NCBI GenBank assembly: GCA_002712305.1
Contig: PATE01000077.1
Span: 14,303 to 22,605 of the forward strand
Source: Gemmatimonadota bacterium
Lineage (GTDB): Bacteria > Latescibacterota > UBA2968 > UBA8231
DNA length: 8,303 bases
Direction: 5' to 3'
The notes beneath the pieces are model-generated. The model did not search any database. It was not told the origin of the DNA and worked only from the letters and a program-made list of their open reading frames with translations. A program made the translations under genes and the position numbers. Each line of letters opens with the position of its first letter. Positions within the stretch are counted from its first letter, which is position 1. Below are positions 183 through 7,585 of the stretch, in pieces.

Positions 183-1211
183 TCAGCCGCGGGCCACGCC
201 CGTGTAGATGTTCCTGACCACTTCTGCCTTCTCGGGGTCATCTGCGACGCTCGCGCTGGTGAATATCATCACGCCGCTGCTGTCTGCGCCCAGCCCGTAC
301 TCCAGAACTCGGGCGAGTTCGTCGGCAGACACCGGCGGCGTGGCCTGGGCCTGCACGATGGGCCACAGTCGGGGAAGGCGACCGGCTTCGGTGCGGATCA
401 GGTGGCGTTCGCAGAAGTACTCGACATACTCCTTCAGGTACTCCGGCGACATACCAGAGTGGCCGTGGTACAGCATCGGCGAGAACACATCCACGTAGGG
501 CGCCAGAGCGTCGAAGTCCAGCCCCAGGCAGCGACGACGGGCACCCCAGAAGTCCTCTTCCTTCCACGCAGCTTGGTAGTTGCCGACTAGGGCCCTCGGG
601 CGCACTTGCTTGACGGTTTCGCGGATCTCGCGCGCCCAGTCCACCAGCACCGACACCCGCCAGTCCTCCCACTGACGGGGTGCGTGGTGGAGGATCCAGT
701 CCGCCTTCTGGGCCGTCGTCTCCCCCTCGATGTCGACGTCGGACCAGCTGGTGAAAGCGGCCAGGCAGGAGTCGTTGAAGCACGTCTTGACCAGTTGCGG
801 ATACGGATCCTCGAACTGGGCATGCCAGTGTAGGTAGTCCATCCACACCCCGTCGACGTCGTATGTCTCCAGCAGGGAACGAAGTGCCTTCATGCGGCTG
901 GCGCGGAAGCCCGGATCGGTGGGGCAGGCACCCATGAACCAGGTCGCGGGGGCTGCGGGCTGGCCGTCGGCTCCGATCGGATGCGCCTCGGGGTGCTCAG
1001 CGACGTAGTCGTCGTACAGGCCGTTCAGGGTCGCGAACTCCGCGAATACGAGACAGCCCTCGTCTCGGGCGCGCTCGATCGTCTCGCCATCAAGTGACGG
1101 ACTGTCCACGAACAGAGCGTTGATGCCCAGATCTGACAGGCGCAGGTCTTTCTTCCATAGAGGGCCCGGGTGGCCGAATATACCACAGACAGGGCTCGGG
1201 ATGTCGTTCAT
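183..1211 (-). CDS. TIM-barrel glycoside-hydrolase-like protein
   Basis: This is a 342-residue cytoplasmic-looking protein without a signal peptide. ATG at 1211 is preceded by GAGGAA about 6 bases upstream, which supports this start. The layout fits a (beta/alpha)8 barrel of the putative glycosyl-hydrolase group related to GH10-like or DUF4015 proteins. An early strand reads INALFVDS (30-37). A strong motif VDGVWMDYLHWH (119-130) ends a strand with Asp125. A Cys motif CFNDSCLAAF (144-153) is typical of these families. Late strands are ALVGNYQ (207-213) and DVFSPMLYH (241-249), with a final strand GVMIFTSA (313-320). Asp125 is a plausible active-site acid, but this is inferred from its position at a strand end. 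Substrate and reaction cannot be read from the sequence. It is the last gene of a three-gene operon behind a PhyH oxygenase and a ceramidase-like hydrolase, so a role in degrading a lipid- or sugar-containing compound is likely. Confidence 0.8.
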   Translation of the reverse strand: MNDIPSPVCGIFGHPGPLWKKDLRLSDLGINALFVDSPSLDGETIERARDEGCLVFAEFATLNGLYDDYVAEHPEAHPIGADGQPAAPATWFMGACPTDPGFRASRMKALRSLLETYDVDGVWMDYLHWHAQFEDPYPQLVKTCFNDSCLAAFTSWSDVDIEGETTAQKADWILHHAPRQWEDWRVSVLVDWAREIRETVKQVRPRALVGNYQAAWKEEDFWGARRRCLGLDFDALAPYVDVFSPMLYHGHSGMSPEYLKEYVEYFCERHLIRTEAGRLPRLWPIVQAQATPPVSADELARVLEYGLGADSSGVMIFTSASVADDPEKAEVVRNIYTGVARG

Positions 1212-1256
1212 GTGTGTTCCTCGACGTCGCGTGCTCGCTTATGGTCTCGAATGCTG

Positions 1257-2075
1257 CTACCCCTGCAGCTTCTCCTCCCAACCTCGGAGCTTTTCCACCA
1301 TACCCCGGATGCGAGGCCGCTGGCTGTTGCGGAATGCTTCAGCGATCAGGCCGAAACCGCTGTCGTTGCCCCTCAGTACTTCAAAGTCTTCCTCACTGCT
1401 CGGCTCGGTCGCAAACTTCACGTACTTCGTCGTGATGAAACTCCGTCCCTCCTTTTTGCCATAGATGCCGTGGTACAGGCGGTCGTCGAACAGGACCACA
1501 TCTCCTGGCTCAACCTCGAGGGCGTGGCAGGGCAAGTCCGGTCCGGTGACGCCGAAAGCGGTCAGGCTGATATCCGTCTGGGCGTGGGAGTCCTGCCCTT
1601 CGTGAAGGGCCCACAGTTTCTCACGCAGACGCCCGTCTTGAGAGCAAGGAATCACGCGGAGGGCACCGGTTTCCTTCTTCATCGGCTCGAGGGACATCAT
1701 CATCTTAACCCGTAAGTACTCCGCCCCCTCGTTCTGGGGGCGATCGGTGTGCCATTGCAGAAGGCCTTCGTCGGTGAAGCTGCCCTTGTGTCCTTCTGAT
1801 CCCCCCCAGACGAAGTCGCTTCCCAGCAAGTCCTCGATGGCCAGATAGATCCGGTCATCGTCGACCAACTCGGCCAGCCGGGGACGATGTTCGACGAAGG
1901 GCACGACGATCTGGTAGGGGTGTCCCTGGCTCTTGGGGTCTTCCTGCCAGACCTGGTTCGCCTCGCGGGTGATGTCCGCCATTTCCGCCGCGTTGAAGAC
2001 CCCCCGAAGCGTCAGGAATCCGAAGGTCCTAAAGTGGGCGGTTTGCGCTGATGTCAACACGTTACTGTCTCCCAT
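1257..2075 (-). CDS. Phytanoyl-CoA dioxygenase (PhyH) family Fe(II)/2-oxoglutarate oxygenase
   Basis: This 272-residue protein is of normal length for the family. The double-stranded beta-helix ligands are visible: LQWHTD gives His109 and Asp111 (the HxD pair), RLYHG gives the distal His202, and GRSF gives Arg211, which should hold the 2-oxoglutarate carboxylate. The motif TGALRVIPCSQ (136-146) corresponds to the usual 'NGxLxxxPGSH' strand, although the final His is replaced by Gln. The N-terminus SAQTAHFRTFGFLTLRGVF (9-27) is the typical family opening. The frame stays open upstream to 2261, but that stretch overlaps the ceramidase-like gene and is Arg-rich shadow, so ATG at 2075 is chosen. 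No good Shine-Dalgarno precedes it, only AACAG, so translation may depend on the upstream gene, whose stop lies 37 bases away. The family hydroxylates diverse small molecules using O2. The substrate here is unknown. Confidence 0.9.
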   Translation of the reverse strand: MGDSNVLTSAQTAHFRTFGFLTLRGVFNAAEMADITREANQVWQEDPKSQGHPYQIVVPFVEHRPRLAELVDDDRIYLAIEDLLGSDFVWGGSEGHKGSFTDEGLLQWHTDRPQNEGAEYLRVKMMMSLEPMKKETGALRVIPCSQDGRLREKLWALHEGQDSHAQTDISLTAFGVTGPDLPCHALEVEPGDVVLFDDRLYHGIYGKKEGRSFITTKYVKFATEPSSEEDFEVLRGNDSGFGLIAEAFRNSQRPRIRGMVEKLRGWEEKLQG

Positions 2076-2112
2076 CTGTTTATGATTGATCTGTCGATCT
2101 ATGGCGAGACGT

Positions 2113-3435
2113 CTAGCTGTTGGACGCGATCTCGAGCGACCGGACCGCGCCCTGAGTAAGCACTCGATCCGCGTCGTCCCGCAGGCGGCGTCCCTGGTGT
2201 CTGGCCCTCGCATCGAGGACCTCGTAGCCACCGTAGGGGACCTCCTCTGACGTCGGCACATAGCCGATCGAGCCGTTGGCGTAGCCCACGGGGAGCGTCA
2301 GCTCGAAGGGGGATGCCTCGGCGATGGCGAATCCCGTCTCGACGAAGATCTCTCCGGGCAAGCCGACGAGGGCGACCTCGTCGAGGGCTACAACCTGCAC
2401 GTCCATCGGTAACCCCTCGGACACCGTGCCTGTCCGCAATGCTTCGAGACGCTCCTGGGCGGCGAAGTAGTGGCGGCAGGTCCGCCAATCCCGATGGTGG
2501 TCTCCCGCCAATTCTCGATACTTCGGTTCCCATTCCGCCAGATCACGTTCGCACTCGGCCTGGGATGGCATGGGTTCCAACGGCAGTTCGAAGGCGTGCC
2601 GGGCGCAGCGCAAGCGCCCGCTGTCACGGAGATCGGACATGTCGGCGATGGCCTGCAGCACGGCTGATCCGGCTCGCTTGCCGTGATCTCCGGCCAGTTG
2701 AAATGTGCCGCGCGGATGGGGGTTGATGTTGCCCGCGCAGCCGTTGACGAACAACGCCGTCGATCCCACCAGTTCGGATTCGATCAGACGCATGGCCGCG
2801 CCCATCCAGTCGGCGGTCCACAGGTAGTTGTCGCCCACCAGGCAGGTGCCGTGAGCGGCGTGCTGATAGATCGTCACCAAGGGTGTGCCGTCGACGTGTT
2901 CGAACCACAACACGTCGACCCACGGCGCCACGGGCCCGTCGGGATTGACGCCGATGCGAGTCGTGCCATCCGCCTGGCGTTCTCTGCGGTTGGCGCCCAC
3001 CTGCAACGGTTGACGGCCCTTGCCCCAGCGAATGGGTGTCGCTGCCCTGACCGCCTGCAGTGCCGCGCCGGCCATGTAGTGACTCACCGTTTCAATGTAG
3101 GCCGACAGGCCCGCGTCGAGCTCCGAGAAGCTGGAGTACATCAGCGGGCCACCGTGCGTGTGTGAAAAGGCGAGGAAGACGTTGGCGGCGGGCACGCCGG
3201 TGGCGGTCTGGACCAACTCCCGGACACGGGCGACCTGCTGCTCCTTCATCCCGAGCAGGTCGCTGGAGATGATAACGACCTGCGTCGTACCGTCGTCCAG
3301 AAACAGTGTGTGTGTGTTGAGGTGATCGTGCACGCCCTCGGCGCCGTGGTCACGCGCGCCGTAGCCACCCATGGGGAAGCCGATGGGTGGAGTTATGCGG
3401 GCGCCGCCGGCGCCGCCCTTGAGGTTGCCTGTCAT
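2113..3435 (-). CDS. Neutral/alkaline non-lysosomal ceramidase-type hydrolase (N-terminal domain protein)
   Basis: This 440-residue protein has the signature of the ceramidase N-terminal domain. It opens with GGARITPPIGFPMGGYGAR (10-28). SHTHGGP (91-97) gives a metal-binding His-x-His pair, HAAHGT (192-197) gives further His ligands, and NGCAGNINP (231-239) occupies the catalytic loop region. GEIFVETG (361-368) and GYVPTSEEVPYGGYE (391-405) are the usual late motifs. Known members are Zn-dependent amidases of ceramide, but this stand-alone short form lacks the C-terminal domain of true ceramidases, and many such proteins have unknown substrates. No signal peptide is seen, so a cytoplasmic location is likely. 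An alternative ATG lies 12 bases upstream at 3447. The inner ATG at 3435 is preferred because GGGAGG sits 4 bases before it. It is the first gene of the operon with the PhyH oxygenase and the TIM-barrel protein. Confidence 0.88.
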   Translation of the reverse strand: MTGNLKGGAGGARITPPIGFPMGGYGARDHGAEGVHDHLNTHTLFLDDGTTQVVIISSDLLGMKEQQVARVRELVQTATGVPAANVFLAFSHTHGGPLMYSSFSELDAGLSAYIETVSHYMAGAALQAVRAATPIRWGKGRQPLQVGANRRERQADGTTRIGVNPDGPVAPWVDVLWFEHVDGTPLVTIYQHAAHGTCLVGDNYLWTADWMGAAMRLIESELVGSTALFVNGCAGNINPHPRGTFQLAGDHGKRAGSAVLQAIADMSDLRDSGRLRCARHAFELPLEPMPSQAECERDLAEWEPKYRELAGDHHRDWRTCRHYFAAQERLEALRTGTVSEGLPMDVQVVALDEVALVGLPGEIFVETGFAIAEASPFELTLPVGYANGSIGYVPTSEEVPYGGYEVLDARARHQGRRLRDDADRVLTQGAVRSLEIASNS

Positions 3436-3465
3436 GGGTCCTCCCATCTTGTGTTGATTCTTCGA

Positions 3466-4242: not shown

Positions 4243-6468
4243 CTAGAAGAACGCCTTGTGCAGCACACGTACGCTGCGACCCGGCTCGGGCATGATTTCG
4301 CGGACGCGGTTCAGATGTCGCCGGTATTCGGTGTCGAGGGCGTTGTCAACGCTCAGCGTCATGACGTGTAACAGGCCGAAGGCCACCTTGTGCATCTCGG
4401 CGGACAGGTCGAGGACGACATAGCCGGAGGTGGGTGCCTCGAAGCGCCCCGGTCGGTCCTGATCATCGGCGAAACGCAGGGCGCCACCCAGATCGAAACT
4501 CGTGGCCGCCTGGTGGCGCACGCCGATGCGTCCCTGGAGGGGGGGCATGCTGGGCAGGTCGTCACCCTCGTCGAGTTCCCCGTGCACGAGGCTCACCGTT
4601 CCGTAGCTCGACAAGCGGCGCGTCAGATGCAACTGCCACCCGGCTTCCGCACCCCACATCTGCGCATCCAACCCGGTGAATCGATACAGGAGCAGGTCAC
4701 CCCGACGCAGGCTGAGCTGGCCCGTGTTCTGCGGGAAGATGTAACCGGTGATGGTGTTGCGAAACACCGCCAGCCGGGCGTCCCCTGCCGCGCCCCGCCA
4801 GTCGACGAACAGCTCCAGCCCGTTGCCTTGCTCCTCACCGATATCGGCGTTGCCGACCTCGAAGGCGTAGGCGGCCAGGTGAGGCCCCTCTGAGTAGACC
4901 TCCTCGACCTGCGGCGCCCTGAAGGAACTCATCCAAGTGACGCCAGACCGCAAGGCACTCCCGAGTTGACGCTCGACGCCGATGCCCCCGGAGGCGCCAG
5001 CGAAGGAGCGTTCGCGGATGTGGCCGACCTCATCGGAGATCTTCTCCACAGCCGGATCGAGGCGGCGACCGTCCCAACGCAGGGCAGCATTTGTGGACCA
5101 CGGTCCGTGGAGCCACTCGCCATAGATGAAGGCGGCCCCAGCCGTCTCTTCCGCATCGGGGGTGAAGACCAGCCCGGCCGTGTTGTAGTCACGGTGCTCT
5201 CCCCACAGCCCAAGTGTGACGTTGCGCAGGGGGCCGATCGGTGCCAGCCGAGCCCGGACTTCGGTGTTCGTCGTGAGGACACCAAACTCCAGTCCGATAT
5301 CGCCGGAGGCCTCGATCTCTTCCTGGAAGTAGTGGCTGTGTGCGTAGATCAACTCCAGACGACGCAGCCAGGTCCAGGTCGGCGGATGAAGCCCGACGCG
5401 CACCTCGCGATGACGACGATCGAGCCGGATGTCCACACCGCTGGGGTGTCCGCCGATGGGATCGGGAGGAATGCCGTAGTCGGAGTCGTAGAGGCTGTAG
5501 CCGATCCCCACGTGTCCCCAAGGGCGCACCCAGCCGATGCCCAGCGCGGTGTTGCCCGTGGTGAGGTCGGTGTTGAGCAGGTCACCGTCCGGCGTGCCGA
5601 TGTCGCCGGCTCCACGCAAGCTGCCATCCAGGCGGAATACCAGCGGGCCCGCCGGCAGATGCACATCGATCCCGGAGCCGATGCCACTGTTGACACTTTC
5701 CAACTGCCAACTGATGGCACCGCGTGGTCGCTCGACTCTTTCTGACGGTACGGCGCCGCGCACGACATTGACGACGCCGCCCAGGGCGTTGCCACCGTAG
5801 AGGATCGCTTCCGGACCACGGACGATCTCGATGCGCTCCGTAGTCAACGGCTCGATGGCGACGGCATGGTCAGAAGATGTCGCAGACAGATCTCCCGTGC
5901 GACCGCCATCTTCGAGGACGAGAAGGCGATCACCGCTCAAGCCCCGCAACACGGGCCGCGCCGGCGCCGGCCCCATGCTGCGCTGCGCCAGACCCGGCTC
6001 CAGGGCGATCGTCTCGGCAATGGTGCGGCTCAGATTCTGCCGCAACCGCTGATCTCCAATCACCTGCTCCGGCGCAGCCAACGCCGACACGGCGTCGTTC
6101 GACCGGTCTGCCGTCACGACCGATTCGTGGAGGGTGACCGAACGCGAAACCAGGCGCAAGGTGACCTCGGTGACAGCGCCTGCCGGAGTATTCACCGTCC
6201 ACCCGCCCGGGGAATAACCGATACGGAGCACCTGCACGGTGTGGAGGCCAGCGGGCAGGTGCTCGAGCCGGAACCGGCCCTCGGCGTCGGCGTGGGCATG
6301 GTGGTCCCGTTCGTCGAGGATGACCACCGCCCAGCCGACGGGCTCACCCGAAACGGCGTCAACCAACTGACCCTCCAAGGTCGCCCCCTCGTTGGCGAAA
6401 CAGGGACGCGTCGCGACGACGGCAAGGACCGCCGCCGCGACGGCGAACCAGTACCGGGACTCAACCAT
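4243..6468 (-). CDS. TonB-dependent outer-membrane receptor with N-terminal carboxypeptidase-regulatory-like domain, probably for metal uptake
   Basis: This 741-residue receptor is of full length. Residues 1-25 form a signal peptide ending CFA. Residues 29-108 are a carboxypeptidase-regulatory-like beta-sandwich containing DERDHHAHADAEGRF (52-66), with three His. ESVVTA (115-120) is a TonB box. The plug follows, with RPVLRGLSGDRLLVLEDG (171-188) and IEIVRGPEAILYGGNALGGVVNVV (213-236), the usual plug motif. The remainder is a 22-strand-type barrel ending in Phe741, the normal C-terminal aromatic for barrel assembly. The frame extends further upstream, but that part overlaps the lipoprotein gene and looks like shadow. 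ATG at 6468 lies inside the end of that gene (ATGGTTGA overlap), which suggests translational coupling, and no Shine-Dalgarno is near. The His-rich domain and His-rich neighbours argue for zinc or another divalent metal. This is inference. Confidence 0.93.
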   Translation of the reverse strand: MVESRYWFAVAAAVLAVVATRPCFANEGATLEGQLVDAVSGEPVGWAVVILDERDHHAHADAEGRFRLEHLPAGLHTVQVLRIGYSPGGWTVNTPAGAVTEVTLRLVSRSVTLHESVVTADRSNDAVSALAAPEQVIGDQRLRQNLSRTIAETIALEPGLAQRSMGPAPARPVLRGLSGDRLLVLEDGGRTGDLSATSSDHAVAIEPLTTERIEIVRGPEAILYGGNALGGVVNVVRGAVPSERVERPRGAISWQLESVNSGIGSGIDVHLPAGPLVFRLDGSLRGAGDIGTPDGDLLNTDLTTGNTALGIGWVRPWGHVGIGYSLYDSDYGIPPDPIGGHPSGVDIRLDRRHREVRVGLHPPTWTWLRRLELIYAHSHYFQEEIEASGDIGLEFGVLTTNTEVRARLAPIGPLRNVTLGLWGEHRDYNTAGLVFTPDAEETAGAAFIYGEWLHGPWSTNAALRWDGRRLDPAVEKISDEVGHIRERSFAGASGGIGVERQLGSALRSGVTWMSSFRAPQVEEVYSEGPHLAAYAFEVGNADIGEEQGNGLELFVDWRGAAGDARLAVFRNTITGYIFPQNTGQLSLRRGDLLLYRFTGLDAQMWGAEAGWQLHLTRRLSSYGTVSLVHGELDEGDDLPSMPPLQGRIGVRHQAATSFDLGGALRFADDQDRPGRFEAPTSGYVVLDLSAEMHKVAFGLLHVMTLSVDNALDTEYRRHLNRVREIMPEPGRSVRVLHKAFF

Positions 6469-6958
6469 CGTCGTGATCGTCGTGTGCCTCTCCGGGACCG
6501 CCCTCGGTGACGTGGATATCGATGGGGCGGGACACGAAGTCGGCGTGATCATCGTGGTTGATCTTGATGCGGATCGTCGTCTCGCCGGCGGCATGGCCGA
6601 CGATGTGGAAAGCCCAGGCACCGTCCTCCTCGTGGTGCTCGACCTCGGCGATGGCCTCATCGGCGATCTCCCAATCGAGGCTGTTCTCGTCCTCGTCGGG
6701 GACGAACAGATCGCCATCCTCGGCGATGAAGCGCAAGGTCAGCAGGGCCGTTTCGCGCTCGACGCCCACGTCGATCTCGCCGGTGACTTTGCCGGCTTCG
6801 TCGCGGGCGATCTCCTCACCTGAGTTGAGGACGACGACGCCGAAGGCTTCAGCATGCTCCTCGTCGTGGCTATCGACAGGATTGTCATCGTCGCCGCAGG
6901 AGGCCACGAACAGTGCGGTGGTTAAGGCGAGAATAGGAAGCTTCAGGATCCGGTTCAT
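6461..6958 (-). CDS. His- and acid-rich outer-membrane or periplasmic lipoprotein, metal-binding accessory of the receptor
   Basis: This 165-residue protein starts at ATG 6958, with GGAG 11 bases upstream. An upstream in-frame extension to 7255 is Arg-rich leader sequence and is rejected. Residues 1-20 form a lipoprotein signal with lipobox VAS-Cys21, followed by GDDD, which by the +2 Asp rule in enterics may favour inner-membrane retention. The mature part carries eleven His, many next to Asp or Glu: HDEEH (31-35), EHHEEDG (107-113), NHDDHADF (134-141) and EAHDDHDDG at the very C-terminus. Between them are beta-rich stretches such as FGVVVLNSGEEIA and TGEIDVGV. Similar small proteins with an 'HADF/HADY' motif occur next to TonB receptors in several uncultured phyla (recalled). 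Binding of Zn or another divalent ion and delivery to or from the receptor is inferred. It is translationally coupled to the receptor gene through the 8-base overlap. Confidence 0.85.
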   Translation of the reverse strand: MNRILKLPILALTTALFVASCGDDDNPVDSHDEEHAEAFGVVVLNSGEEIARDEAGKVTGEIDVGVERETALLTLRFIAEDGDLFVPDEDENSLDWEIADEAIAEVEHHEEDGAWAFHIVGHAAGETTIRIKINHDDHADFVSRPIDIHVTEGGPGEAHDDHDDG

Positions 6959-6980
6959 GTTCGTTACATCTCCATTTGGT

Positions 6981-7023
6981 CGGCGGCAGTGAAGCAGCAT
7001 TACTGAGACGATGCTGCCCGCCG
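6981..7023 (-). promoter_or_regulatory. Stem-loop in the lipoprotein gene leader
   Basis: GCAGCAT (6994-7000) pairs perfectly with ATGCTGC (7011-7017) across a 10-base loop. An outer stem CGGCGG (6981-6986) can pair with CCGCCG (7018-7023), leaving a 7-base bulge on one side. It ends 22 bases before the lipoprotein start codon, just ahead of its GGAG. No T-run follows on the minus strand, so it is not a standard intrinsic terminator. A translational control element, an operator or an RNA-processing hairpin are possible. Confidence 0.35.
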
Positions 7024-7110
7024 CCGAGCGTGGGAACTTTAGCACGGGGCCGAATGGCCGCGCACGAACCCACACACGGAAAAACACGCATGATATCGCA
7101 CTCCCGGTGC

Positions 7111-7129
7111 CGCCGTGCTGTACACGGCG
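7111..7129 (-). promoter_or_regulatory. Perfect 7-base stem-loop between the small membrane protein and lipoprotein genes
   Basis: CGCCGTG (7111-7117) and CACGGCG (7123-7129) form a GC-rich perfect stem around the 5-base loop CTGTA. It lies about 38 bases after the stop of the small membrane protein gene in transcript order. A run of five T occurs only some 25 bases beyond the stem, so this is at best a poor intrinsic terminator. It could attenuate transcription or protect the 3' end of the first message. Confidence 0.35.
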
Positions 7130-7166
7130 AGACCGGACTGCGGTCACGCAACTCCGATGTGGGTGC

Positions 7167-7499
7167 TTAGCTGGAGAGGAACGAGCGGTGCGGAGGGGCT
7201 CGCGGCGCCGCTGGCGTGCGATGGGCGACCCGAGGTGGCGGGGCGATCGTCGCAATGGCGTGCGACATGAACCGAGTTACGAGAAGGGACCGTGCCACGA
7301 AGCCCACCAGGACCAGCGAAAAACCGACCTGGAGGAGATGGACGGGACACTCCGATTCCGGCGCGCCCGGGGCATGGAAGGCCTCGTGCAACTGCGGCAT
7401 GGCCAGCGTTGTCGCCAGTAGCAATAGCAGGAGCAGACCAGCGGTGGTGCTCAGAGCACGTGGCCAACCTGGGCGTCTGTCGGGAGTTCTCGGAACCAT
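7167..7499 (-). CDS. Small two-segment membrane protein with His/Cys motif (DUF2946-like, metal-related)
   Basis: This 110-residue protein starts at ATG 7499. A TTG 36 bases upstream is an alternative start. Neither has a convincing ribosome binding site, although AAGGA precedes the TTG at too short a distance. Residues 17-36 are a Leu-rich transmembrane segment. A short outward loop HEAFHAPGAPESECPVH follows (His38, His42, Cys51, His54). A second segment covers about 55-70 (LLQVGFSLVLVGFVA). The tail is Pro/Arg-rich. Small membrane proteins with a His/Cys loop between two helices (DUF2946 and similar) are often found beside TonB receptors for copper or zinc. The match here is by architecture, not by clear sequence motif. 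It is the first gene of the metal operon. The 208-base gap to the lipoprotein gene contains two stem-loops. Confidence 0.65.
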   Translation of the reverse strand: MVPRTPDRRPGWPRALSTTAGLLLLLLLATTLAMPQLHEAFHAPGAPESECPVHLLQVGFSLVLVGFVARSLLVTRFMSHAIATIAPPPRVAHRTPAAPRAPPHRSFLSS

Positions 7500-7585
7500 G
7501 CTTAGGAGTATCGTCAGTGTTGAACCGAAACGCAATGTCCTTGTCAGCAGCGATCACAGAACGAGGATCAGAACAACAGAAACGC

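Follow-up and report, generated by a model that had tools for sequence, protein, structure and literature searches.

What do three adjoining genes encoding a small membrane protein with two transmembrane segments and a His/Cys loop (P0003), a His-bearing lipoprotein (P0002), and a TonB receptor (P0001) do for a bacterium of a poorly studied phylum? The genes lie on the minus strand within 4243-7499 of the window, by which we mean the whole 8,303-nucleotide stretch analysed, at the end of contig C98 (PATE01000077.1) in genome G000 (GCA_002712305.1). The initial annotation proposed an uptake operon for zinc or a similar divalent metal, based on His clusters in all three proteins. We confirmed the three-gene set, which is arranged head to tail in the order P0003, P0002, P0001, with 8 bp shared between the lipoprotein stop and the receptor start. 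Close relatives with the same genes, among them family members that carry a name, are called Candidatus Latescibacterota, in agreement with the poorly studied phylum suggested at the outset. We suggest that the three genes probably form an operon for uptake of zinc or a closely similar divalent metal, in which the lipoprotein would catch metal for a ZnuD-like receptor. We favor this reading because of the gene order, conservation, the set of zinc ligands, co-occurrence, the neighboring genes, and the predicted immunoglobulin (Ig) fold of the lipoprotein. The ZnuD ligand set and the gene neighborhoods across phyla give good support to metal uptake as first proposed.

The receptor and its putative metal site

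The curated profile that best matched P0001 was ZnuD (NF038289; E 6e-45), and the closest solved structure to the receptor was also ZnuD (PDB 4rdr; family profile E 5e-68). ZnuD of Neisseria is a zinc TonB-dependent receptor with the high-affinity zinc ligands D99, H100, E340, and H499 (PMC4557270; the paper prints D90, but position 90 is Thr under the offset used, and D99 was assumed). In the family-profile alignment to 4rdr, these ligands align with D200, H201, E384, and H530 of the receptor, which were invariant in all 18 receptors of the family from several phyla, while the full set occurred in none of seven further TonB receptors tested from the window genome. H341 was also invariant among the family receptors. 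With the receptor architecture (CarboxypepD_reg, Plug, and barrel domains in Pfam) and all four high-affinity ligands in common, the receptor probably works like ZnuD and with the ZnuD metal site, as judged from sequence comparison.

The two receptors differ in loop 3. In ZnuD this loop spans 63 residues, which remained unaligned, and its His clusters bind metal in the crystal (PMC4557270); its counterpart in the P0001 family is ~11 residues long. P0001 further differs from ZnuD in its extra carboxypeptidase-regulatory-like N-terminal domain, its dedicated lipoprotein, and a score far under the curated cut-off. Because this cut-off failed and loop 3 is missing, we did not file the receptor as ZnuD.

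SusC/SusD-type pairs also consist of a TonB receptor with a regulatory-like N-terminal domain encoded beside a lipoprotein gene, and the arrangement of P0001 and its adjoining lipoprotein resembles theirs. However, P0002 is not SusD-like, with no SusD Pfam match and a predicted Ig fold, and the predicted cargo in the present case is a metal ion.

The lipoprotein and the small protein

The lipoprotein belongs to a new family that is unnamed in the libraries searched, as neither Pfam nor NCBIfam holds a family for it. An AlphaFold model, for which 42 domains from the window and fetched loci served as input, is an 11-strand Ig-type beta-sandwich (predicted local distance difference test, pLDDT, ~97 across residues 41-150) closest to Big_2-type and related domains, with Z scores of 9.6-10.2 to LigA and SbsC domains. 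Big_2 domains such as those of LigA and SbsC (domain 5) thus share its predicted fold at a Z of ~10, but the P0002 family carries conserved metal-type ligands, and its sequence matches to Pfam Big_2 were marginal (E 0.015), found in 3/42 domains, not in P0002 itself, and under the gathering score. With a predicted Big_2-like Ig fold and with linkage to the receptor and to metal genes, the lipoprotein has a role that, although called undefined at first, is no longer wholly so.

The mature protein is acidic (43 D+E vs 7 K+R) and holds eleven His (residues 31, 35, 108, 109, 118, 122, 135, 138, 149, 159, and 162), the number originally reported. Conservation over the 42 domains was 98% for H135, 86% for D140, 83% for both H35 and H138, and 68% for H149, and stopped at the nearest family for H108, H109, H122, and the tail residues H159 and H162. 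ZepA, a cyanobacterial exoprotein of extracytoplasmic zinc uptake, likewise combines an Ig-like beta-sandwich with a His site (PMC10957091); the likeness noted is one of features, and ZepA differs in having two domains and the motif H-x(2-9)-H-F/Y-H and in being an exoprotein rather than a lipoprotein. After the lipid Cys, the CGDDDN of P0002 can be set beside the surface-lipoprotein signal (LES) of Bacteroidetes, C-X-K/polar-(D/E)2 (PMC5080379), and both +4 and +5 were acidic in 35/41 lipoproteins, although this rule comes from Bacteroidetes and is not established in the present phylum.

Individual lipoproteins carried one, two, three, or more copies of the ~125-residue domain. Open reading frames (ORFs) with arrays of several Ig-domain copies, some without an adjoining receptor, were found at three loci (L083, L084, and L087). 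At another (L061, 7672-10746), a 1024-residue protein with parts that by eye are protease-like and WD40-like ends in an Ig domain of the lipoprotein type, and in a relative (G018:C1:2607580-2607806, inside L041) a second lipoprotein copy between the small gene and the receptor has decayed to fragments with in-frame stops.

The small protein is DUF2946-like, and its relatives with shared features came from Latescibacterota, Zixiibacteriota, Ignavibacteria, and the other surveyed phylum. Pfam DUF2946 gave weak matches in 4/18 family members (best E 0.00095) and none in P0003. Over the 18 proteins from several phyla, H38 and C51 of the loop (residues 38-54, HEAFHAPGAPESECPVH) and the C-terminal R-x-P-P were nearly or fully invariant. 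The metal interpretation holds, mostly on grounds other than the His clusters first cited for it. Within those clusters, H38 and C51 of the small protein hold across phyla. The receptor HHAH is weak evidence because it was absent from all 17 relatives, and as a metal site it was rejected as private to the window genome. The His cluster at the C terminus of P0002 was confined to the nearest family and was likewise set aside as the defining site of the protein.

Linkage, cargo, and competing explanations

The lipoprotein was present in 34 of the 194 genomes searched, and its profile matched 58/84 genomes of one further phylum and 4/5 of another. Named matches were Latescibacterota and metagenome-assembled genomes (MAGs) labelled Gemmatimonadota, Zixiibacteriota, and Ignavibacteria. 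Across 60 genomes counted at a strong-match threshold, lipoprotein and receptor occurred together in 29, the lipoprotein without the receptor in two, the receptor without the lipoprotein in none, and neither in 29 (Fisher p 4e-15, merely indicative because the genomes share ancestry); weaker receptors were found without the lipoprotein in two genomes. In both lipoprotein-only genomes the gene sits at a contig edge. Where a lipoprotein ORF had room beside it, a receptor lay within 400 bp on the same strand in 50/65 cases, and several of the rest were tandem duplicates one gene farther off or over-extended ORFs.

The lipoprotein and receptor genes recur side by side in several phyla, in company with DUF2946-like small proteins. 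Pfam-confirmed neighbors were FUR, ZnuA, CobW, ZIP, CDF, an ArsP_1-type permease, MerC, DUF3299, and MacB/FtsX, and one other phylum had the recurrent order small-lipoprotein-receptor-MerC-ZnuA. No consistent association with glycans or peptides appeared among the loci surveyed. Some loci resemble ZrgABCDE and PA4063-PA4066, which are zinc importers of the ATP-binding cassette (ABC) type (PMC9820375, PMC8561739), in having a MacB-like FtsX permease, an ATPase, and DUF3299 as neighbors. The Zrg-like loci inspected differ from ZrgABCDE in carrying the Ig-like lipoprotein and the small His/Cys protein; a ZrgA-like gene was not recognized in them by eye, and no profile search for ZrgA was made. 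One Latescibacterota lipoprotein-receptor pair (L067/L072) lies a few kb from a permease and an ATPase of the siderophore/B12 ABC type, as read by eye. The only ZnuA-type locus of the window genome (L094, 4169-9533) is TroABCD-like, combining an MntR-like regulator with a binding protein, an ATPase, and two permeases of the ABC-3 type, and in one relative (L044) a Fur gene stands beside znuA. A Zur box was looked for upstream, but no clear palindrome is shared among relatives, and no Fur gene was found in the window genome.

Zinc is the likely cargo, judging by the receptor site and by the CobW and Zrg-like neighbors. Several observations nonetheless weigh against our interpretation of the locus. 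P0001 reached 154 bits against the NF038289 cut-off of 950 bits, and the predicted receptor model, in which the plug was not resolved, was not used for site geometry. The putative metal site of the lipoprotein is drawn from conservation. The ZnuA-like binding proteins best matched zinc AztC, with manganese models not far behind and both below cut-off, the genome's own ABC transporter locus carries the MntR-like regulator, and the Fur family (PF01475) was not found in six Latescibacterota genomes (G000, G018, G021, G024, G027, and G030), while 13/14 control genomes matched. Because the manganese models score near AztC, the regulator is MntR-like, and no Fur was found, we hold zinc to be likely and not firmer. 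Apart from the manganese scores and the regulator, the names of the DUF2946-like and MerC proteins, which are not zinc-specific, would also fit the same machinery with manganese, copper, nickel, or cobalt as its main cargo. We regard this as distinctly unlikely, given that the zinc ligands of ZnuD are all kept and that, at the threshold used, the ZnuD profile was matched by 18/18 receptors of the family and a copper receptor profile by 5/18. The TonB-hemin profile was likewise matched by 18/18, and one Latescibacterota locus is near the siderophore/B12-type transporter, so import of heme or another chelate, with the His clusters incidental, has to be weighed. It appears highly improbable: the site is fully conserved, in ZnuD it lies buried with room for just one ion, heme-agarose is not bound by ZnuD (PMC4557270), and the neighboring genes concern metal ions.

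A different objection concerns the partner of the lipoprotein: the lipoprotein may instead serve in the periplasm, as a metal chaperone or binding protein for an inner-membrane ABC importer, in the manner of ZrgA, a His-rich periplasmic zinc protein (PMC9820375). Six lipoprotein loci (families f147/f148, in the phylum with the recurrent MerC-ZnuA order) have small-lipoprotein-MerC-ABC-FtsX, with MerC and Zrg-like genes and no receptor adjoining, and Zrg-like genes also occur near the lipoprotein in Latescibacterota. Against this stand the tight co-occurrence of lipoprotein and receptor, the overlap of their genes in the window, and the acidic residues after the lipid Cys, which resemble the surface signal of another phylum. 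We therefore find a chaperone of this kind rather unlikely, though it stays alive because some lipoproteins lack an adjoining receptor.

Proposed mechanism and further features of the locus

In the uptake operon that we favor, the receptor, as a distant relative of ZnuD, would pass metal across the outer membrane via D200, H201, E384, and H530 with energy from TonB. The lipoprotein would be anchored in the outer membrane, probably on its outer face, and may bind metal loosely through H135-x-x-H138-x-D140 with H35 and H149, joined here by the acidic His tail. It could then hand metal to the receptor, standing in for the His-rich loop 3 of ZnuD as a metal-capturing lid. The DUF2946-like small protein would act as a metal-handling accessory, probably showing its His/Cys ligands to the periplasm, and an ABC importer of the ZnuA/AztC type or a Zrg-like one, nearby or elsewhere in the genome, would finish import. 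In this scheme, we infer which metal is carried, that the lipoprotein binds it and is exposed at the surface, the hand-over, and the role of the small protein. A broader version, possible but somewhat doubtful, is that several phyla have a two-component outer-membrane zinc importer in which the receptor lacks a metal-fishing loop and a surface-anchored Ig lipoprotein, with one to about five metal-binding domains, captures metal and hands it over.

The paper searches made brought up no lipoprotein that partners a ZnuD-type zinc receptor, and a search on Latescibacterota, zinc, and TonB together returned one paper, a metagenome survey. If the proposal is true, it would add a receptor-lipoprotein design to zinc import and give a function to the unnamed lipoprotein family and the DUF2946-like small family. 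It would also provide zinc-uptake markers for uncultured Latescibacterota and for MAGs labelled Gemmatimonadota, Zixiibacteriota, and Ignavibacteria, for which genetic work is mostly out of reach.

Table 1. Features of the metal locus, in window coordinates, with the basis of each assignment.
Feature	Position	Strand	Basis
Tentative promoter of the small gene: TTGCGT, 17 nucleotides, GATACT, ending 7 bases before ATG	7507..7535	-	By-eye reading; low confidence
Small two-transmembrane protein P0003, 110 amino acids, DUF2946-like; H38xxxH42 and C51PVH54 in loop; C-terminal RAPP, residues 100-103	7167..7499	-	Sequence; family alignment
His/Cys loop HEAFH...CPVH, residues 38-54	7338..7388	-	H38 and C51 conserved across phyla
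Lipoprotein P0002, 165 amino acids: lipobox and single Big_2-like Ig domain	6461..6958	-	Sequence, profile, predicted structure
Lipobox VASC (Cys21), then GDDDN, acidic residues +3 to +5	6896..6907	-	Sequence
Predicted Ig-like beta-sandwich, residues 38-153	6500..6847	-	AlphaFold pLDDT ~97; Z ~10 to Big_2 domains
Conserved H135xxH138xDF, which together with H35 and H149 is the proposed metal site	6536..6556	-	Conservation in 42 domains
Acidic His tail HDDHDD, residues 159-164, nearest family only	6467..6484	-	Comparison with relatives
ZnuD-like TonB-dependent receptor P0001, 741 amino acids	4243..6468	-	Best NCBIfam profile ZnuD; best PDB chain ZnuD 4rdr
Carboxypeptidase-regulatory-like N-terminal domain, residues 30-106	6151..6381	-	Pfam
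HHAH, receptor residues 56-59, non-conserved	6292-6303	-	Comparison with relatives
D200 H201, plug (ZnuD D99/H100)	5866..5871	-	Alignment with ZnuD and conservation
Short loop 3, residues 338-348, IGGHPSG, invariant H341	5425..5457	-	Opposite ZnuD chain 255-317 in alignment
E384 (ZnuD E340)	5317..5319	-	Alignment with ZnuD and conservation
H530 (ZnuD H499)	4879..4881	-	Alignment with ZnuD and conservation

The tentative promoter was absent from the hits of a standard consensus scan, and counts from the promoter and terminator scans were not above those of shuffles; RNA elements gave no Rfam match. Compared by eye, the upstream regions of relatives have a similar TTGCGT/TAAAAT spacing. Downstream, starting ~0.8 kb beyond the receptor and with no link seen to the metal locus, the minus strand encodes unrelated functions at 183-3447, namely neutral-ceramidase-like, phytanoyl-CoA dioxygenase-like (PhyH), and, by a weak match, GHL10-like hydrolase genes.

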